Shown one piece after another: positions 6,027 through 22,794 of a stretch of DNA of 44,092 nucleotides. Source of the stretch: a virus. The stretch spans positions 1-44,092 of the IMG/VR virus record IMGVR_UViG_3300049846_000790. One strand, given 5' to 3'. Position 1 is the stretch's first letter; each line of letters opens with the position of its first letter. The notes under the pieces were generated by a model that was not told the origin of the DNA, did no database searches, and was given only the letters and a program-made list of their open reading frames with translations. The position numbers and the translations under genes are program-made.

Positions 6027-8582
6027 CTAATATTGCTCATTCCAAAAATTGAGTTCTTCATCTACATTAAGAAGCTCTTCATGGTTTTCTGCAAGCCCTC
6101 TTGCAAATTTTTCTCGTTCACTCATTTCTTTTGGCGGTCTCTGATCAACTACTGTATTTACAGCAATCGGCGATACAGAGGTAAAATCCCACATGATAGT
6201 AGATGATGCGTAGCGTAGAGCATCAATCAAATCATTCTTAGCTTTTTTCTTATCTGTGTTGTGAGTGAAGTTCTCAAACTCTTCTGCAAGTTTAGTCGCG
6301 TTCTCACTTTTAAATATCTTAAGCATCTTAAATGATAGCAGTGAGTTCAATATCCCCTCACCTTTCATGTGATTCTTTTCAGCTTTCAAAAATGGCAGCC
6401 CTTGAGCCGCAGCTATATTTTTAGTGTCAGCACTAGCCCAATCATAATAAACGGTGTGGCGTGGCTCTCCATCCGCCATATACAAATATTTATTAACCAC
6501 GTCTTGTGCTGTCGTCACGACGCGATCACCACGCCAACACTTATAAACTACCCCAAATGTGTAGTCAGGATTAATTGCCAGAAACACAATGGCTGCTGGA
6601 TGCCCCGATTCCCCCCCAGATCCAACATCAATCCCGACTACACGTGACCACTCGGCGGGCACCGAAAATGGCTCAATCAAGTGTATTTCTCGATCAAACG
6701 ACGGGTAGACACGATTACTGTCAACTACAAATTTCCCCATTATACGACGTTCAATCTCTGATTTATTCGCACAACGTGCTATGGCCTGCTCTATCCTCTG
6801 ATTAGTCCATTTACTTTCACTCCCATCAGTATACTCCTGACAGTCATAAAGACTAACCTGCCAAACACGGGCTTCTTTTAATTCACTCTTCTTCTCAACA
6901 ACATTACGCCAATACTCTTGCCCTCGTGTTGCCGTAAAAACAAAATACATGTAACCATTAGTCGCGTTTACACGCATAGACAGCTCAGGCAACAATTCAA
7001 CTGGCACCTCTTCATCTAGTCCCATCATGTACACCGTTCCCGACTGAAGCATGTGTACGTCCTGCGCATACGTTTTAAAATAAATAGTCACACCACTATT
7101 AAAATCAACGGAGTGTATTTTACCATTAACAAAATTAGGCTTCCAACCATACTTCTCATGATCTGGATTACGTGGCATGTACTCACTCCACTTCTCATAC
7201 CACTCAATGGTCGCGACATCTTTAGAAGGATAACAATACCAGAACTGACTAGGCACTGGGTTATGCTTTGGCAAATCAGGCCAATACTTAGGCCACAACT
7301 CTTTAGTAGTCGCCACATGTATCATCTTGCGAATAAGTATGGATGAATTATGTGTGACTATGTAATTTTTAGTACAAAGATAACTTTCATCATCAGCACT
7401 AACAGATATGCACCTGCCTTTATGAGGTCCAATATATTTTATATTATCTATTACCTTTTCAAATTTATATCTATCTGTACTCTTCCAAAGATCTGATTTT
7501 CTTTTTGATTTAAAAGGATTAAATTTTGTCCATATATTAATTCTATAAGCTTTTTTACAAAAAACTTTTTCACCATTTTCATTCCTATAGAATGGTTTTT
7601 CTTTTACTTTTATTTGTGCAATTCCACCAAGACTATTTACAAGTTCTTTAAAGTCATTTGCCAACTGTTCTGATACGGTTGTGTACTCCGTTATTCCATT
7701 GTTTGTGTAAGCATCGGTATCTAATAGACCAGCTAAGATAGCCTTTCTTTGTTCTATCGAACCAAATAAATATTCTTTTGGTATAAATTTTTCATGAGAA
7801 ATCTTTTTATATAAACCTAAATCAAATAATTTTTCTTTTGCTTCTTTTAAGATACCTATCGTAAGTTTATCAGTATTATATCTATTACCATATTTTAAAC
7901 AATAATTGCTAAGGTCTGTATCTTCTGAATTAAATGAAATTGAGTGATCAGAACCGTTCCCAAGATAAAGACCAATATAGTAAGGATCAAATAATTCTTT
8001 TTCAAGATACTCCACTGGCTCACAATATGGTATTACATATTTTTTACCAGCTCTTGGTTTTCCATTTTTATAAGATTCTTCAAATATTTCCTTTGTGGAT
8101 TTTACAATCCATTTTCCATATTCTTTATTTGGAATAATGGTTTTTTCTTTATTATTTGATATATAATTTTTTCTAAATCTTTGTTTTTCACCCTTACATA
8201 TCCACAAATGATTTTGCCCTATTTTTACTTTATCTCCGTCTGAAAATTGTAATTCATAACTTTCGTCATATCCATCAAATGGAATATCTATAACCTTTGT
8301 TTTTTTTCCATCGCGAGAATAGACATAATCACCAACATTAATATCCTGTATTTTTTTATATCCATTTGTAGTTGGTATTAATTCATCGTATAAGTTATGC
8401 TTACCAAGCTGGTTTGCGGCAGTAACACACATGATTTTACTTCTGTCGTCATCAAAGAACTGCTTCATCCACCAGTAGAATTTATGTGAGTGTAGATGTG
8501 GCAACAAGTCGCGTTCACTCTGCTCTGCAAGCAAACGCTCCAACTTCATAGCCTTCAGGCGAAGTATCTCAGTCTCTTCCAC
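6027..8582 (-). CDS. terL: Terminase large subunit, interrupted by an intein
   Basis: The packaging motor ATPase and nuclease. The precursor has 851 residues; removing the intein (residues 62-412) leaves 500, normal for TerL. The extein rejoins to the Walker A AANQLGK-SS. Walker B is MMGLDEE (D523, E524), the coupling motif TATRG is at 551-555, and the RNase-H-like nuclease acidic residues are D652 (VGIDVGSG), D714 (VYYDWAS) and D784/D787 (NDLIDAL). Its ATG overlaps the end of the upstream gene by 14 bases, placing it directly after a TerS candidate. Activity would depend on splicing, because the ATP-binding loop is split. Confidence 0.95.
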   Translation of the reverse strand: MEETEILRLKAMKLERLLAEQSERDLLPHLHSHKFYWWMKQFFDDDRSKIMCVTAANQLGKHNLYDELIPTTNGYKKIQDINVGDYVYSRDGKKTKVIDIPFDGYDESYELQFSDGDKVKIGQNHLWICKGEKQRFRKNYISNNKEKTIIPNKEYGKWIVKSTKEIFEESYKNGKPRAGKKYVIPYCEPVEYLEKELFDPYYIGLYLGNGSDHSISFNSEDTDLSNYCLKYGNRYNTDKLTIGILKEAKEKLFDLGLYKKISHEKFIPKEYLFGSIEQRKAILAGLLDTDAYTNNGITEYTTVSEQLANDFKELVNSLGGIAQIKVKEKPFYRNENGEKVFCKKAYRINIWTKFNPFKSKRKSDLWKSTDRYKFEKVIDNIKYIGPHKGRCISVSADDESYLCTKNYIVTHNSSILIRKMIHVATTKELWPKYWPDLPKHNPVPSQFWYCYPSKDVATIEWYEKWSEYMPRNPDHEKYGWKPNFVNGKIHSVDFNSGVTIYFKTYAQDVHMLQSGTVYMMGLDEEVPVELLPELSMRVNATNGYMYFVFTATRGQEYWRNVVEKKSELKEARVWQVSLYDCQEYTDGSESKWTNQRIEQAIARCANKSEIERRIMGKFVVDSNRVYPSFDREIHLIEPFSVPAEWSRVVGIDVGSGGESGHPAAIVFLAINPDYTFGVVYKCWRGDRVVTTAQDVVNKYLYMADGEPRHTVYYDWASADTKNIAAAQGLPFLKAEKNHMKGEGILNSLLSFKMLKIFKSENATKLAEEFENFTHNTDKKKAKNDLIDALRYASSTIMWDFTSVSPIAVNTVVDQRPPKEMSEREKFARGLAENHEELLNVDEELNFWNEQY
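7347..8399 (-). mobile_element. Intein (class 3 type) with LAGLIDADG domain inside terL
   Basis: A 351-residue in-frame insert between Lys61 and Ser413 of the TerL precursor. It starts with HNLYDELIPTTNGYKKI (block A without Cys/Ser at position 1) and ends NYIVTHN followed by Ser. Block B has HLW (W66 of the intein), block F GRCISV (C330) and block G VTHN (T349), the W-C-T triad that defines class 3 inteins. The central endonuclease has motif 1 IGLYLGNG (142-149, N148 where Asp is usual) and motif 2 LAGLLDTDA (222-230, D229 kept). The insert looks more AT-rich than the flanking extein. Exact N-boundary is inferred from the uninterrupted Walker A of TerL. Confidence 0.9.
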
Positions 8583-10665: not shown

Positions 10666-10887
10666 TTACCTTGGCAACCTAACATCTGGTAGCTCATATT
10701 CAACATCTTCTGGATCGCCTACTCTTTTTAAATACTCGTTTACTATATCCCTGTTTTTTTGTTCCTTAATCTGTTCAGGACTTAAACCAAGTCTTTCTAA
10801 AAACTTAGACTCAATAAGATCTCTTTCTCTTTCTTTTTGAAATTGTAGTTTTGTCCACGCGCTTGTTAATTTCTTTCTCATAAACAT
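10666..10887 (-). CDS. First gene of the leftward late operon, unknown (73 aa)
   Basis: A basic, helical protein (MFMRKKLTSAWTKLQFQKERERD...). The frame is open up to an ATG at 11004, but the extra 39 codons run through G- and A-tracts and a 13-bp palindrome and look non-coding, so I place the start at 10887 (10881 is the alternative). Neither start has a good ribosome site, so translation may be weak or use a short leader. A helix, LSPEQIKEQKNRDIVNEY, is the most regular part. Function unknown. Confidence 0.5.
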   Translation of the reverse strand: MFMRKKLTSAWTKLQFQKERERDLIESKFLERLGLSPEQIKEQKNRDIVNEYLKRVGDPEDVEYELPDVRLPR

Positions 10888-10969: not shown

Positions 10970-11200
10970 GTCCTATCACTATCCTTGCCCCCCACCCCCC
11001 CCATAAAATATATATAAATCCAGACAACAAGTAAGTAATTCTCCTAACACCTGAGCTCTCTCATGACGCGTCGGCAGCATTACGAGTGAACACCTGATCG
11101 GTGAGCGCAGAGGAGTTTAGCAAACAAGGGTATTGTGTAGTCATGACAGGTCCTAAATGCTATTTTATGTCAAGCGCTATTTTCGACGCGGCACGCATTG

Positions 11201-11512
11201 GTCAAAATACTTTTGTCCTTGGGACAAAATGCGGACAAAGGACAAAATTCAAAAGTTATTCACAAAAAAGTGCACAAAAAAAGTGCAGTCTCGTAAGTAG
11301 TTGATAACGCGGTGTAGTTTTGTCCCGTTTTGGGACAAAAGTACGACAAAAAACGGACAAAAAAAAAGTCTTAGTAATAATATATATTTATATATAATAA
11401 TTAATGTATATATATAATACATAAATATATAATATTATATAAATATACTTTTGTCATTTTTTGCCTAAGGGTATACATATGTATATAGAACACGCGGGAC
11501 AAAAGGACAAAA
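11201..11512. other. Probable origin of replication: iterons, DnaA-like box and AT-rich unwinding element
   Basis: The motif GGACAAAA or its reverse TTTTGTCC occurs at 11211(-), 11222, 11240, 11318(-), 11333, 11355, 11497 and 11505, with near copies at 11233, 11345 and 11449(-). Two pairs form inverted repeats: TTTTGTCCC-gtttt-GGGACAAAA at 11318-11340 and a looser one at 11211-11229. TTATTCACA at 11256-11264 fits the DnaA-box consensus TTWTNCACA. From ~11374 to ~11447 almost every base is A or T. Iterons flanking an AT-rich stretch between two divergent operons is the classic origin design; initiator protein not identified. Confidence 0.7.
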
Positions 11513-11583
11513 CTCTAAACTATTGTTTTCCCGTCACGACTTGACCACATTTACGCGCCGCTCACTTGTTAAAACATTACTTG

Positions 11584-11670: not shown

Positions 11671-11751
11671 ATGACTCTATTTATGTTTCAAACACTAACT
11701 GCGGCAATAATTACAGCTCTGGCAATGATAGCTATAAGGGGGAGTGTATGA
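11671..11751 (+). CDS. 26-residue membrane peptide, first gene of early operon 1
   Basis: A tiny ORF, MTLFMFQTLTAAIITALAMIAIRGSV, read as a single hydrophobic helix with one basic residue near its end. It has an AAAGGA ribosome site 10 bases before the ATG and its TGA overlaps the ATG of the next gene (ATGA at 11748). Position right after the strongest early promoter plus coupling argue that it is translated. It could act on the host membrane or only serve as a leader that couples translation. Confidence 0.6.
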   Translation: MTLFMFQTLTAAIITALAMIAIRGSV

Positions 11752-12338
11752 CTAGACAACACACTACACGTGAACAATGGCTACTAAAGGCCACACAAGC
11801 CCTTACACCGCATTTCATGTCTAAAGGATACCACGTGCCTACGGTACGCGTATCAACGGGCTTCACGGGCAGCAGAAAGGGTTATAAAGCAATCGGTTCA
11901 TGTTGGTCTAATGAGGCAGCCAAAGACGGCATAAATCAGCTATTCATCAGCCCTGTCATAGATGACTCATTAAGAGTGCTTGATGTTTTATTGCATGAAA
12001 TATGTCATGCAGTCGTTGGCGTTAAGGAAGGACATAACAAAGTGTTTAAACGCTGTGCCCAAGCCGTAGGCTTGACAGGTAAAATGACCCAAACAGTAGC
12101 GAGCCCTGAACTCACGACACGACTACAGTCTATTGTCAAAGACATTGGCGAGTATCCACATGCTGAGTTAATGCCTAGTCTATCAGGGACTAAGAAGCAG
12201 GGGACACGCTTACTAAAGGCCGAGTGCACTAGTTGTGGGTATACAATACGCGTGACAAAGCAATGGGTGTCTTTAGGACTTCCGACTTGTCTATGCGGCA
12301 CTGAATTTACAATGGATATAAAGGAGATAATAAAATGA
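11748..12338 (+). CDS. SprT-like zinc metalloprotease
   Basis: A 196-residue protein with the SprT layout: N-terminal domain, zinc-protease motif HEICH (H83, E84, H87) in DVLLHEICHAVVG, a following helix with H99 as a possible third ligand, and a C-terminal zinc ribbon with C160-x2-C163 and C181-x-C183. SprT/Spartan family members cleave DNA-bound proteins; in phages the role is undefined. It is coupled to the 26-residue peptide upstream and to the next gene by ATGA overlaps, in the first early operon. Confidence 0.85.
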   Translation: MTRQHTTREQWLLKATQALTPHFMSKGYHVPTVRVSTGFTGSRKGYKAIGSCWSNEAAKDGINQLFISPVIDDSLRVLDVLLHEICHAVVGVKEGHNKVFKRCAQAVGLTGKMTQTVASPELTTRLQSIVKDIGEYPHAELMPSLSGTKKQGTRLLKAECTSCGYTIRVTKQWVSLGLPTCLCGTEFTMDIKEIIK

Positions 12339-13236: not shown

Positions 13237-13473
13237 ATGATATCAAAAAACACATTAATACGCACTACTTGGTGGCCAGAAAGCGACATTACAGACGACA
13301 CGACACAAAGTGAATGGGGGCCAAGTGTTGAGACATATTTTAAACTTGGATATCAAATAATAAATAAACTAATGAAGCCTAGCTATAGATTGCAGATACA
13401 AAAATTAGGTAGTGATGGTAAATGGTATGCAGAGGAACAAATAGAAATAATGGAATTGAGGACAAGACAATGA
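13237..13473 (+). CDS. Unknown early protein (78 aa)
   Basis: A 78-residue protein with TTWWPESDITDDTTQ near its start and a C-terminal half (SYRLQIQKLGSDGKWYAEEQIEIM) that reads as beta strands. It is preceded by GAAAGGTAATAAG. Its stop overlaps the next ATG (ATGA at 13470). Confidence 0.6.
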   Translation: MISKNTLIRTTWWPESDITDDTTQSEWGPSVETYFKLGYQIINKLMKPSYRLQIQKLGSDGKWYAEEQIEIMELRTRQ

Positions 13474-13730
13474 CCGACTATAAACAACTAAATCGCGACT
13501 ACTGCCGTTATAACGACGACGACACGGAGTCATGTCACGTCACGTATTCTGTAATAGATAAAAAAGGACGATATTGGGATGCTTCGGGCACTTCATACGG
13601 CGACCATATAATCTGGGAAACCTTAACTGTCGGTAGAATTGAATTTTATAACTCTAAAGCCATTACGAGACTACTAAACAAGTATCATCGAGGATGGGAA
13701 CAAGACGTTGATTATTGTAACGTGCCTTAA
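13470..13730 (+). CDS. Unknown protein, last gene of early operon 1 (86 aa)
   Basis: The frame is open from 13422, but the ATG at 13470 overlaps the upstream stop (ATGA) and gives MTDYKQLNRDYCRYNDDD, so I use it. The protein is acidic and Tyr-rich. Its TAA shares the palindrome TTAA with the stop of the convergent prim-pol gene, a 4-base tail-to-tail overlap. An intrinsic terminator follows at 13765. Confidence 0.65.
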   Translation: MTDYKQLNRDYCRYNDDDTESCHVTYSVIDKKGRYWDASGTSYGDHIIWETLTVGRIEFYNSKAITRLLNKYHRGWEQDVDYCNVP

Positions 13731-15808
13731 AACCATGACTTGAAGTAATAAGTCACACTAGGACGGCCAAGGTCATTCTTGGCCTCTTTTTTAACAATGT
13801 TCTCACCCAAAACTAAATCAAGTATTATTTCATTTCTTATTTTAGCATTTAGACTTCTAAATTTTCTCAAAACGTCCCGTGCCGTCACGACTTGTTTATC
13901 TTTAACATAACTTAAAACTTGCATCTTTAACTCGCCAATATCTAATGAAACTAAATTAGGTACTATGGTCTTAATACTATCAATGTGAAAATTAAAAACA
14001 CTACGTGCCCATAAAAGATTATGCAATTCTACAGTGTGATAATTTCCATCAGAAATGGCGTCAATCATTGCAAGCTTGATGATTAATTCACAACGTCTAA
14101 CTTGAAAATCTACTTCCCATGAATGAGCACCAGTTTGTTCTTTCTTAAATTCATGTTCAAAATACTTTTCATTAACTAAAAAATCACTAGCTTCCTTACT
14201 TGGCACCAAGTATCTAAATTTAACCGCTAACTCGTTAGGTACTAATGACTTGTCTCGCTCAATAGGAAACTGTTCACTAAATATTTTTATTTCATGTTTA
14301 AGATCATCTGTGAAATCAAAAAAAGGATTTTTAGAGTCACGACCATACATATCACCTGCTGTTTGATTAAACATTAAAAAACGTGGCAATAATCCAGACG
14401 TGATTATACTGCGAGACAAAACACGTAGCATCTTTTCTTTTGTCGACGCGCCTACTATAGACACGTGAGCATTAGCAACCCTTGTTTTAATTCCATCCTT
14501 CTTTGAATTGTTTGATGAAGTGAAAGTACTAAAATCATCGGCCTGAGAAAACACATGGTTTAACACATCCTCCAGTGCCGACTTTTCTACACTTATATTC
14601 TTACCGCTCATACCTTCAAAAAGCAGCGACATCTCGTCAACAAGGTATAACCTCTCGCGATTACTAGACAAATCCGTTACCAAAGCGGTGCCCGTCTTCT
14701 TAATAGACTCCACAATGTTTAAACGCTCTGTTATTTGATTGACCGTTTTATAAGCTAAATTCTTACCGAAGCCAGTCGGAGCTAAAACCATTTGATACAA
14801 ATTACCACACGTAACTTGACCGTTAGTATTCTTAAAAGCAAAGCGATTGCCGATCATACCCGACACGACACCTAAAGCAGAAATCAAAGCAATAGAGTCA
14901 ACTGGATATTCTGCTTTAGACATGACAGTGCTATATATCTTGTTTAACATATTTGACATGGGCTTTGGAAAGTTGATGATAGTGTCTTCTTTAGTTCCTT
15001 GCGTTGGCATTTCTATAATGGGAAGCTCGTCACTAATCTCGACATTTAAAGATTTGGCAATTGACTCAACGAAAATTCTAGCCGCTTCTCTTTGATCACG
15101 CGTCTTTTTAAAATAAGGCTCATCGACATCTTTGAATAACTGATTTGAGTGATAAGTCTCGTCGTAAAAAATCACTTCGTCAATTGTCTCGTCTACACTC
15201 TTGTGATTCATTAAACACGCCGATGCAACGGCCTTTAGTTTGTTGTTTCGTCCACTGATCTTTGATAAAATTCTATTCTTATCTAAATTGTCTTTGATTC
15301 TCTCAACGGCTTCTACTGTTAATTCTGGCAATTCAGAAGCGGGGCAAAGAGACTTGAATTGTCCCGACCAGTAATATTCTTGACCAGTCTCAGGATGAAC
15401 GGAGGGCGGAATTAAAATATATTTATTGTTTACTAAAAAATCTAATCTACCAGCCACACTGAAATTTTCTAAATCTTTATTCCATTGAAAAAAACGCGCT
15501 TCACCTTTTTTTCCTTTGCGAACCAAGGGGGACTTTGGAATAAACGAATTGTAAACTAAATCATTGTCGTCAATATCTATGACAATTATGTTTGATGCCT
15601 TACCACACACTAGGGCAATATTGGAACCTGGGGCACGTAAACACCAATCATCTATCTCCTCCTCTGTTGGTAAATTAGAAGAGTAATGTTGCCAGTTAGA
15701 CATGAAACTCTGAGGTGTTTTTTGTCTTTTCTGAATTGGAATTAAAGAGTAGCCCATAGAGTGAACTTCAGGAGCTAATTCTTTAAAGAAACTCTTAATT
15801 GCTGTCAT
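13727..15808 (-). CDS. Prim-pol / helicase-like replication protein
   Basis: A 693-residue protein joining two modules. N-terminal (~1-170): archaeo-eukaryotic-type primase-polymerase (bifunctional prim-pol) with IIVIDIDD (D78, D80) and PPSVHPETG (H138). C-terminal (~270-600): DUF3987-like P-loop ATPase with Walker A APTGFGKN (343-350) and Walker B LYLVDEMS (D391, E392). It would prime DNA and probably unwind it; the main replication protein here, since no DNA polymerase was found. Start at 15808 overlaps the HTH gene by 14 bases; a GTG at 15841 is an alternative. Transcribed against both early operons. Confidence 0.88.
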   Translation of the reverse strand: MTAIKSFFKELAPEVHSMGYSLIPIQKRQKTPQSFMSNWQHYSSNLPTEEEIDDWCLRAPGSNIALVCGKASNIIVIDIDDNDLVYNSFIPKSPLVRKGKKGEARFFQWNKDLENFSVAGRLDFLVNNKYILIPPSVHPETGQEYYWSGQFKSLCPASELPELTVEAVERIKDNLDKNRILSKISGRNNKLKAVASACLMNHKSVDETIDEVIFYDETYHSNQLFKDVDEPYFKKTRDQREAARIFVESIAKSLNVEISDELPIIEMPTQGTKEDTIINFPKPMSNMLNKIYSTVMSKAEYPVDSIALISALGVVSGMIGNRFAFKNTNGQVTCGNLYQMVLAPTGFGKNLAYKTVNQITERLNIVESIKKTGTALVTDLSSNRERLYLVDEMSLLFEGMSGKNISVEKSALEDVLNHVFSQADDFSTFTSSNNSKKDGIKTRVANAHVSIVGASTKEKMLRVLSRSIITSGLLPRFLMFNQTAGDMYGRDSKNPFFDFTDDLKHEIKIFSEQFPIERDKSLVPNELAVKFRYLVPSKEASDFLVNEKYFEHEFKKEQTGAHSWEVDFQVRRCELIIKLAMIDAISDGNYHTVELHNLLWARSVFNFHIDSIKTIVPNLVSLDIGELKMQVLSYVKDKQVVTARDVLRKFRSLNAKIRNEIILDLVLGENIVKKEAKNDLGRPSVTYYFKSWF
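13765..13792 (+). terminator. Intrinsic terminator of early operon 1
   Basis: GGCCAAG-GTCATT-CTTGGCC, a perfect 7-bp stem, followed directly by TCTTTTTT. It lies 35 bases after the last gene of the rightward operon. It is embedded in the 3' coding end of the leftward prim-pol gene, so the same bases encode the prim-pol C-terminus on the other strand. The T-tract makes it directional (rightward). Confidence 0.85.
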
Positions 15809-16022
15809 AATTAACCCAGTCTTCACAGCGAACAAAGCCACCTGTCAACTCTTGTATCTTAACGGCAGCGTCTAGTGACGGCATAAATGCACCGTTAAGC
15901 CATCCGTAAAAATTGTTATAAGCAACGTCCATGTTCTGCTCAAAAAACTTGGTTATTTTTAAATCCTTTCTCTCTAAATACTTAATTAACTTAAGCCCAC
16001 CGATAGTTTTGCGTTTAGTCAT
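15795..16022 (-). CDS. Cro/YdaS-like HTH regulator
   Basis: A 75-residue protein (from the ATG at 16022, which has an AAAGGA site; the longer frame from 16121 runs into the promoter and is unlikely). The order LKLIKYLERKDLKITKFFE then NNFYGWLNGAFMPSLDAAVKIQELTGGFVRCEDW fits small Cro/YdaS-type DNA-binding proteins, whose last helix commonly reads A..IE..TGG.V..EDL. It sits at the head of the leftward replication island, divergent from early operon 2, so it probably represses one or both promoters between 16022 and 16113. Confidence 0.75.
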   Translation of the reverse strand: MTKRKTIGGLKLIKYLERKDLKITKFFEQNMDVAYNNFYGWLNGAFMPSLDAAVKIQELTGGFVRCEDWVNYDSN

Positions 16023-16042
16023 AAAATTATTTTCCTTTCTTG

Positions 16043-16072
16043 TTGACTCATTCAATATGATACACTTATTAT
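16043..16072 (+). promoter_or_regulatory. Promoter of early operon 2
   Basis: TTGACT (16043-16048), an 18-base spacer and TATTAT (16067-16072). The start site would be near 16079, so the first ATG of the open frame (16071) is upstream of the RNA; the ATG at 16113 is therefore the start. The intergenic segment also carries the divergent Cro-like gene's leader. Confidence 0.65.
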
Positions 16073-16112
16073 GAAAAAACAAGCAAGGAAACTTAGAAAG
16101 GAAAAAATAATT

Positions 16113-16316
16113 ATGACACAAGAAGAAATGATTGCAAAGTTAGAGCAGATTAAAAACATTGTTCCAGAGATTGAAAAGACTTTGGCAGAGTTAAATTTTG
16201 CACTAGACTTTAATAGTCAATACACGAAGGCACATTCACACTTAGGAAGTGCCCAAAGTCATGCTCACTATTTAAAATGGTGCGTTGAGATGACGCGAGA
16301 GGAACTTGAAAAATGA
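16113..16316 (+). CDS. Unknown helical protein (67 aa)
   Basis: The start at 16113 (MTQEEMIAKLEQIKNI) has a GAAAGGA site and lies inside the predicted transcript, unlike the earlier ATG at 16071. The protein is helical with a His-rich loop, KAHSHLGSAQSHAHY. Its stop overlaps the ATG of the ATPase gene (ATGA). It opens early operon 2 next to recombination genes, so a recombination accessory role is possible but unproved. Confidence 0.65.
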   Translation: MTQEEMIAKLEQIKNIVPEIEKTLAELNFALDFNSQYTKAHSHLGSAQSHAHYLKWCVEMTREELEK

Positions 16317-21724: not shown

Positions 21725-21972
21725 TTAATCAAACACTCAATCGAATTGGTTGGGAGTGGTCAGGGTCATGGTCACGGTCAGGGTCACGGTCAGGGTCAGG
21801 GTCACGGTCAGGGTCAGGGTCACGGTCAGGGTCATGGTCATGGTCAGGGTCACGGTCAGGGTCAGGGTCACGGTCAGGGTCATGGTCATGGTCACGGTCA
21901 CGGTCACGGTCAGGGTCACGGTCACGGTCATGGTCATGGTCAGGGTCACGGTCAGGGTCACGGTCATTATAA
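21721..21972 (+). CDS. (G/R/W)-Ser dipeptide-repeat protein (83 aa)
   Basis: After a short unique head ([13 protein letters not shown]) the protein is a run of Ser alternating with Gly, Arg or Trp, ending RSL. Of the 35 variable positions 14 are Gly (GGG), 13 Arg (CGG) and 8 Trp (TGG). The frame is chosen because its ATG overlaps the upstream stop (ATGA) and has a GGAG site; the other frames of the array are open too. Basic and aromatic residues spaced by Ser resemble low-complexity RNA- or condensate-forming peptides, which is inference. GGG/CGG/TGG codon use is unlike the AT-rich neighbours. Confidence 0.65.
21758..21967. repeat. Hexanucleotide array (GGTCAN), 35 units
   Basis: Thirty-five uninterrupted 6-bp units GGTCA[G/C/T]: 14 end in G, 13 in C, 8 in T and none in A. 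Every other base is invariant. Units 7-14 and 15-22 (21794-21841 and 21842-21889) are an exact 48-bp tandem duplication, which shows growth by slippage or unequal exchange. All changes in unit number keep the frame. Confidence 0.97.

Positions 21973-22574: not shown

Positions 22575-22794
<220 letters not shown>

Follow-up and report, generated by a model that had tools for sequence, protein, structure and literature searches.

The window analysed here is the whole of a virus record from IMG/VR, 44,092 bases in length, and the feature under study is a cluster of short repeats at 11200-11512. The first 127 bases of the record are identical to its last 127, a pattern shown by complete circular or terminally redundant assemblies. 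Among its gene products are a portal protein, a large terminase, a primase-helicase in which a prim-pol is combined with a DUF3987 helicase, a Sak4-like annealing protein, a DEAD-type helicase and a RecE-like exonuclease. This set of portal, terminase and replication/recombination genes identifies the record as a tailed phage. Comparison with 50,697 phage records returned no close DNA relative, viral contigs scanned with one protein at a time, the prim-pol or the SprT-like protein of this phage, yielded no close relatives either, and Rfam found no RNA family in the record. Since close relatives are absent by both the DNA and the single-protein scans, the case for a replication origin made below is built on distant ones.

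Some other features of the record deserve mention. The SprT-like protein, whose gene lies at 11748-12338 (+ strand), is the one closest to outside relatives among all proteins compared, with about 50% identity to the SprT-like proteins of Microbacterium and Arthrobacter phages. The large terminase gene (6027-8582, - strand) is interrupted in frame by an insert that has a LAGLIDADG-like domain and matches Hint weakly, and which is apparently an intein within the Walker A motif; judged by eye, its first residue is seemingly His, not Cys or Ser. Two tandem arrays of hexanucleotides, GGTCAG x35 and GGCTAT x32, are present at 21758-21966 and 22592-22785, among small overlapping ORFs that have no Pfam match.

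The repeat cluster is flanked by divergent transcription units, leftward at 11004 and rightward at 11748. It contains eight exact copies of the 8-bp word GGACAAAA. Two of these form an inverted pair, TTTTGTCC-TTG-GGACAAAA, at 11211-11229 (copies at 11211(-) and 11222(+)); a single copy follows at 11240-11247 (+), its first base overlapped by the near copy GGACAAAG at 11233-11240 (+). A second inverted pair, TTTTGTCC-7 nt-GGACAAAA, spans 11318-11340 (11318(-) and 11333(+)), another single copy lies at 11355-11362 (+), and two head-to-tail copies occupy 11497-11512 (11497(+) and 11505(+)). A preliminary description of this DNA had listed about eight exact copies in both directions, four of them as inverted pairs and two as direct neighbours at 11497-11512, all of which is borne out, and three near copies, where we count five with one mismatch in or at the edge of the stretch: GGTCAAAA at 11200-11207 (+), the overlapping copy just mentioned, and those at 11272-11279 (+), 11344-11351 (+) and 11449-11456 (-). 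One more exact copy, at 10849-10856 (-), falls within a 13-mer identical to 11313-11325, and may or may not be part of the array.

The whole record has 11 occurrences of GGACAAAA against 2.4 expected. Its densest 302-bp window holds eight, a density never approached in 300 first-order Markov sequences of the whole record or in 2000 random sequences of local composition, both of which reach at most two per 302 bp, and the array is unique in the record. Between the sixth and seventh exact iterons lies an AT-rich element (11375-11447; 73 bp with two non-AT bases), in agreement with the roughly 75 bp of almost only A/T noted earlier. It is an imperfect inverted repeat, and its 75-bp window, at 96% AT, is the maximum of the record, the runner-up place having 85%; we regard it as a candidate DNA-unwinding element. 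The GC-skew minimum is a broad span from 11 to 16 kb, across which skew tracks gene direction, and it was therefore left out of the origin argument.

The primase-helicase gene is found at 13727-15841 (- strand; Pfam PF09250, E 1e-16, and PF13148, E 3e-9; PHROG 3022, DNA primase). Its 3' end faces the array across 2215 bp, with small genes and the SprT-like gene in between. According to the preliminary description no separate initiator gene was evident; a better account, by analogy with P4 alpha, SaPI Rep and Cch2, is that the primase-helicase itself is the likely initiator. A structure model and alignments point to its last 73 residues (13730-13948, - strand) as a C-terminal winged helix and candidate iteron-binding domain. 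The model covers the last 139 residues (25 sequences, mean pLDDT 83, pTM 0.50), and its elements, H70-83, E86-88, H89-95, H101-114, E117-123 and E130-135, follow the order H-E-H-H-E-E, by which the C-terminus is predicted to be a winged helix. The C-terminal motif of this phage reads ARDVLRKFR...GRPSVTYYF; the key residues of the domain are R655, R659, R662 and G692-R693, the first three of which map in and just after model helix 89-95. Among solved structures, the closest folds belong for the most part to repressors of the winged-helix type and to other winged-helix proteins (MarR, HxlR, MecI/BlaI, ROK), with Z reaching 7.7 across some 65 residues. Because the best Foldseek E is only 0.04, the claim is limited to the winged-helix fold class and extends to no family. 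The origin-binding domain of P4 alpha is not among the structural matches listed, which carries no weight either way, and the prim-pol shows a weak sequence match (E 0.03) to ORF904 of pRN1. Just upstream of the prim-pol gene, a small ORF (15795-16121, - strand) has a helix-turn-helix look, judged by eye, and no Pfam or NCBIfam match; Roseobacter phage CRP-902, with a similar gene order, has an annotated Cro/C1-type HTH gene at the equivalent position.

When the viral collection was scanned for a pair of head-to-tail iterons, 58 loci besides this phage were retrieved, 21 of them with at least four GGACAAAA copies within 600 bp. In an all-against-all comparison, the protein family most widely shared by the loci was the prim-pol family of this phage, present at seven loci with arrays (this phage counted) and at none without. 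Other array neighbours are DUF3987 helicases and other primase-helicases. Arrays of GGACAAAA often adjoin a PrimPol-DUF3987 or DUF3987 helicase with C-terminal RDLxRxxR...GRP: prim-pols and DUF3987 helicases that are 15-21% identical to the protein of this phage nonetheless share R-x3-R-x2-R and Gly-Arg in their last 75 residues. A C-terminal profile built without the sequence of this phage (the window-blind HMM) has a single match among its ORFs, the prim-pol C-terminus (E 1.3e-5). The same profile gave a C-terminal match at eight of the 21 loci with at least four copies versus one of the 37 with fewer (Fisher 7e-4, computed with near-duplicate loci kept in), and in a ninth array record the C-terminal domain lies outside the fetched locus. 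An HMM made from DUF3987 sequences alone does not match the protein of this phage. The prim-pol of CRP-902 (L065) scores 24.1 bits on the window-blind HMM, versus 24.8 for this phage, yet its locus has no GGACAAAA; the HMM alone therefore fails to predict the word, whereas the RDxLRKFR helix does predict it.

The word is also found beside proteins of other kinds. When the 13 array records whose fetched locus lacks the C-terminal domain were searched with the C-terminal alignment, no RDLxRxxR winged helix was found in 12, some of them short fragments, and L206 has an RDLxRxxR-type helix and no GGACAAAA. Several kinds of primase-helicase adjoin GGACAAAA, namely those of L020, L024, L007 and L017. 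The L020/L024 type corresponds to the PHROG 864 primase, a DUF5906 primase-helicase, and the 3' words of its relatives (33 of 50 loci read) are in many cases different ones, for instance GGTTACA, GTTACAAA or GTAACAAA; GGACAAAA is the top word only in L262 (= L020) and L296 (= L024) among the 33. Thus, L020 and L024 look like other initiators sharing or converging on GGACAAAA. The arrays in L007, L017, L019, L046 and L052 are accounted for neither by the RDLxRxxR winged helix nor by the L020/L024 type. It would seem from this comparison that several families of phage primase-helicases have 3' iteron arrays in common and that different domains can reach one word, which means that the word alone does not identify its reader protein. 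Within the PHROG 864/DUF5906 set (loci L264-L311), L298 has GAAAACTT x16 located 3' of its primase gene.

To avoid circularity, relatives of the primase-helicase were fetched by core alignments that exclude the C-terminus (64 viral loci; 43 from genomes of bacteria, Firmicutes for the most part; the best 80 of 180 prim-pol loci). The usable genes numbered 173 of 199, those dropped being cut off, shorter than 250 aa or provided with too short a 3' flank. A repeated 8-mer with Poisson p<1e-7 occurs in the 1.35 kb at the 3' end of 47% of the 173 genes. The same holds for 0.6% of 158 gene-body stretches (paired Wilcoxon 1e-20) and for 4% of the 150 taken further 3' (1e-15). Across the 84 genes compared, the array-bearing 3' flank holds the more AT-rich 75 bp in 92% of cases relative to the stretch further 3' and in 99% relative to the gene.

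A word with p<1e-6 was available for 99 of the 173 genes, and these were reduced to 80 arrays with less than 95% winged-helix identity. Iteron similarity is correlated with winged-helix identity when the core is held fixed (partial Mantel r 0.39, p 0.002, the floor of 499 permutations; n=80), as against r 0.07 and p 0.06 for core identity with the winged helix held fixed (n=80). These p-values take loci as independent, with kinship partly controlled by the partial Mantel test, by the use of distinct helices and by sister pairs. In the prim-pol group the best-matching core segments are 52-71% identical to those of the query pair, while winged helix and word both differ. The helix RDLSRKFR of L182 is found with GGACAAAA x10, RDLTRQFR of L186 with GGCCAAAA x11, the LPHSVLLKRMK-type helix with variants of GGGTGAAAGAAG, and its HQ variant with GGTGAAGGAAG; a single core family includes the words GGACAAAA, GGCCAAAA, GGTGAAAGAAG and GGTGAAGGAAG. 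The seven HQ loci, three of them near-identical, contain 45 GTGAAGG and 2 GTGAAAG, versus 42 and 132, respectively, in the 48 HS loci, some of which use GTGAAAC, GTGAATC or GTGAAAA. Within the PrimPol-core group, at least two copies of GGACAAAA are present in four of seven loci with RDLxRxxR versus none of 61 others. The combination of an RxxxRxxR helix and GGACAAAA is common to prim-pols (L008, L011, L031, L053 and this phage) and DUF3987 helicases (L036, L035, L145, L150 and others) of little core identity. In type, the ARDVLRKFR helix of our phage most resembles the helices of L008, L011 and L053, all three of which have GGACAAAA arrays as well. L036, together with L139, represents a prophage element in a cultured host, Ligilactobacillus ceti DSM 22408.

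The DUF3987 group provides additional clues on single residues. With the third Arg of the helix present, 33 of 43 distinct helices go with more GGACAA than TGACAA (8 with fewer, 2 tied), as opposed to 1 of 11 in which this Arg is replaced (9 with fewer, 1 tied; Fisher 7e-5). In effect, where the third Arg gives way to Ser, Gln or Lys, GGACAA usually becomes TGACAA. Sister pairs with 64-86% core identity show the G to T switch between nearest relatives: L118 (Ser) has 0 G/8 T versus 5/2 in L078, L099 (Lys) 0 G/7 T versus 3/0 in L152, L128 (Gln) 0 G/5 T versus 5/1 in L135, and L163 (Gln) 0 G/4 T versus 5/2 in L078. The pairs of L167, L175, L103 and L166 are weaker, and there are exceptions in 8 of the 43 helices; L068 (RDIMRLCR, Arg kept) has TGACAAAA x4 and L076 (His) retains G. 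The third-Arg rule is therefore a tendency and not a law. A further first base is seen in L123 and L161, which use CGACAA. On these grounds we put forward, as a proposal with about equal chances of proving right or wrong, that exchangeable C-terminal winged helices of phage primase-helicase initiators read 3' iteron arrays through a residue-to-base code of a simple kind. In this code the first G of GGACAAAA, for instance, would be read by the third Arg of RxxxRxxR, and Ser or Gln in SHSVLLKRMK would select GTGAAAG or GTGAAGG, respectively.

In this context, the segment 11200-11512 is very probably the replication origin of the phage, with iterons that the C-terminal winged helix of the primase-helicase would bind, an AT element that would be melted and a prim-pol that would prime. 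An iteron origin is the best reading of the array. What sequence shows directly is the array itself, the AT-rich element, the domains that compose the protein, the prediction of a winged helix and, among relatives, an iteron that co-varies with this helix. The preliminary description had proposed an iteron-type origin, which the comparison with relatives supports, and its guess that the prim-pol may bind has become the favoured mechanism, with the winged helix as the candidate domain and the co-variation as indirect support for sequence-specific binding by it. The simplest mechanism for this phage would be that of P4 alpha, SaPI Rep and Cch2. Copies of the primase-helicase would bind the 8-bp GGACAAAA iterons by their winged helices, assemble as helicase rings beside the AT element and melt it, and the N-terminal prim-pol domain would prime on the exposed strands, so that replication would start at the array. 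A repeat array beyond chance, an adjacent AT-rich element and a primase-helicase with a predicted C-terminal winged helix are all found here, as in the class of iteron origins with an initiator primase-helicase. The class and our relatives have the array directly downstream of the initiator gene; in this phage it lies 2215 bp off, on the same 3' side.

In an alternative scenario, the array would be no origin and would represent clustered operators at which a repressor, or a regulator of early genes, acts between the divergent transcription units. It does sit between divergent genes, inverted pairs such as its own are usual for repressors that bind as dimers, other phages have arrayed repressor sites, and the small ORF at 15795-16121 could by its appearance encode such a protein. 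Nevertheless, no GGACAAAA is present near the promoter side of that ORF, an AT-rich element recurs alongside the arrays, and arrays of the DUF3987 and PrimPol groups are found 3' of the initiator gene, with a word that tracks the winged helix of the initiator itself. We thus consider an operator in place of an origin unlikely, although the two roles could go together in one array.

A still smaller probability attaches to a host protein, DnaA or another, that would bind the iterons and start replication. The occurrence of one word beside several kinds of primase-helicase (L020, L024, L007, L017) would suit such a factor, as would the DnaA-like nonamer of the preliminary description, which is indeed present within the array (TTATTCACA, 11256-11264). 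However, the record contains six TTATNCACA versus 2.8 expected, and 6 of 100 shuffles reach six; at this chance-level frequency the box is no evidence for DnaA, and the record lacks the DnaA boxes above chance of a DnaA-dependent origin. DnaA-like sites are present in one of 24 arrays compared, that of this phage. Furthermore, the word varies with the phage protein inside one core family, for which a host factor would give no explanation.

Least probable of all is a structured origin as proposed for pRN1 and phage BIP-1, where the primase would recognise a large stem-loop and the iterons would be secondary: ORF904 of pRN1 likewise has a C-terminal winged helix (PMC4234260, in excerpt) and the strand at 11195-11520 folds far better than shuffles (z -5.5), but this folding comes from the iterons in inverted pairs and from the palindrome of the AT stretch, the region just 3' of the prim-pol gene (13427-13726), which matches the stem-loop position in pRN1, shows no folding beyond that of shuffles (z +0.9), and iteron sequence, not structure alone, co-varies with the protein. 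Since the array strand folds well, the inverted pairs of the proposed iteron origin may also have a structural role.

The design of array and initiator is already known from P4 alpha, SaPI Rep and Cch2 (excerpts of PMC7581432 and PMC4234260), and both sources provide precedent, in the portions available, for iterons located 3' of the gene to which a C-terminal domain binds. In P4, alpha acts on ori/crr as one protein that primes, unwinds and recognises origin repeats by a C-terminal winged helix (PMC4234260, in excerpt), as predicted here; it differs in its Toprim-type primase and its iterons, our phage having an archaeo-eukaryotic prim-pol and a DUF3987 helicase. In SaPI Rep and SCCmec Cch2, a C-terminal domain binds short direct repeats that follow the helicase gene immediately downstream (PMC7581432, in excerpt), similarly to the candidate domain of this phage. 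These proteins have no fused prim-pol, the Cch2 iteron is AAGTG, and our array is 2.2 kb from the gene. The PrimPol replicons of the pRN1 ORF904/BIP-1 type share the prim-pol, the helicase, the C-terminal winged helix and an origin 3' of the gene; the excerpted text on them argues for a stem-loop origin and against iterons (PMC4234260), whereas here the iterons are the conserved feature. Phage NrS-1 also has a prim-pol fused to a helicase and an 8-nt recognition sequence, TTTGGTTA (PMC8718748, in excerpt), but with two copies only per genome (PMC7102993, in excerpt) and a helix-bundle domain that, in the excerpts, recognises the template for primer start.

The apparent residue-to-base code seems to be new, as far as searched. 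We found no paper in the open-licence literature on iteron/winged-helix co-variation in phage PrimPol or DUF3987 helicases, and the word GGACAAAA gave no phage-origin paper by title among the matches listed. For phages that replicate by prim-pol/DUF3987 enzymes, few origins have been mapped, and stem-loops are preferred to iterons in the main proposal that we found in print for such replicases (PMC4234260, in excerpt). The code would amount to a testable rule, in which the last 75 residues of the protein name the 8-bp word of the origin. If true, origins in uncultured phages could be located from sequence alone; given that the same helix accompanies the same iteron on cores of little identity, those of thousands of uncultured phages might be predictable from the protein alone. 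Such a code would also explain which replicons share or exclude one another's initiators, and would provide matched natural protein/DNA pairs for the study of binding codes.

Ten named phage loci with distant prim-pols or helicases (L064-L073) have no array of GGACAAAA. Several of these loci have other words next to the gene, and in two such words form arrays beside the prim-pol gene, both unreported-looking: TTTGGAAT x6 in Rhizobium phage RHph_TM3_3_14B (L064) and GTCGGTTA x6 in Synechococcus phage Ssp-JY40 (L069). These are likely to be origins too.
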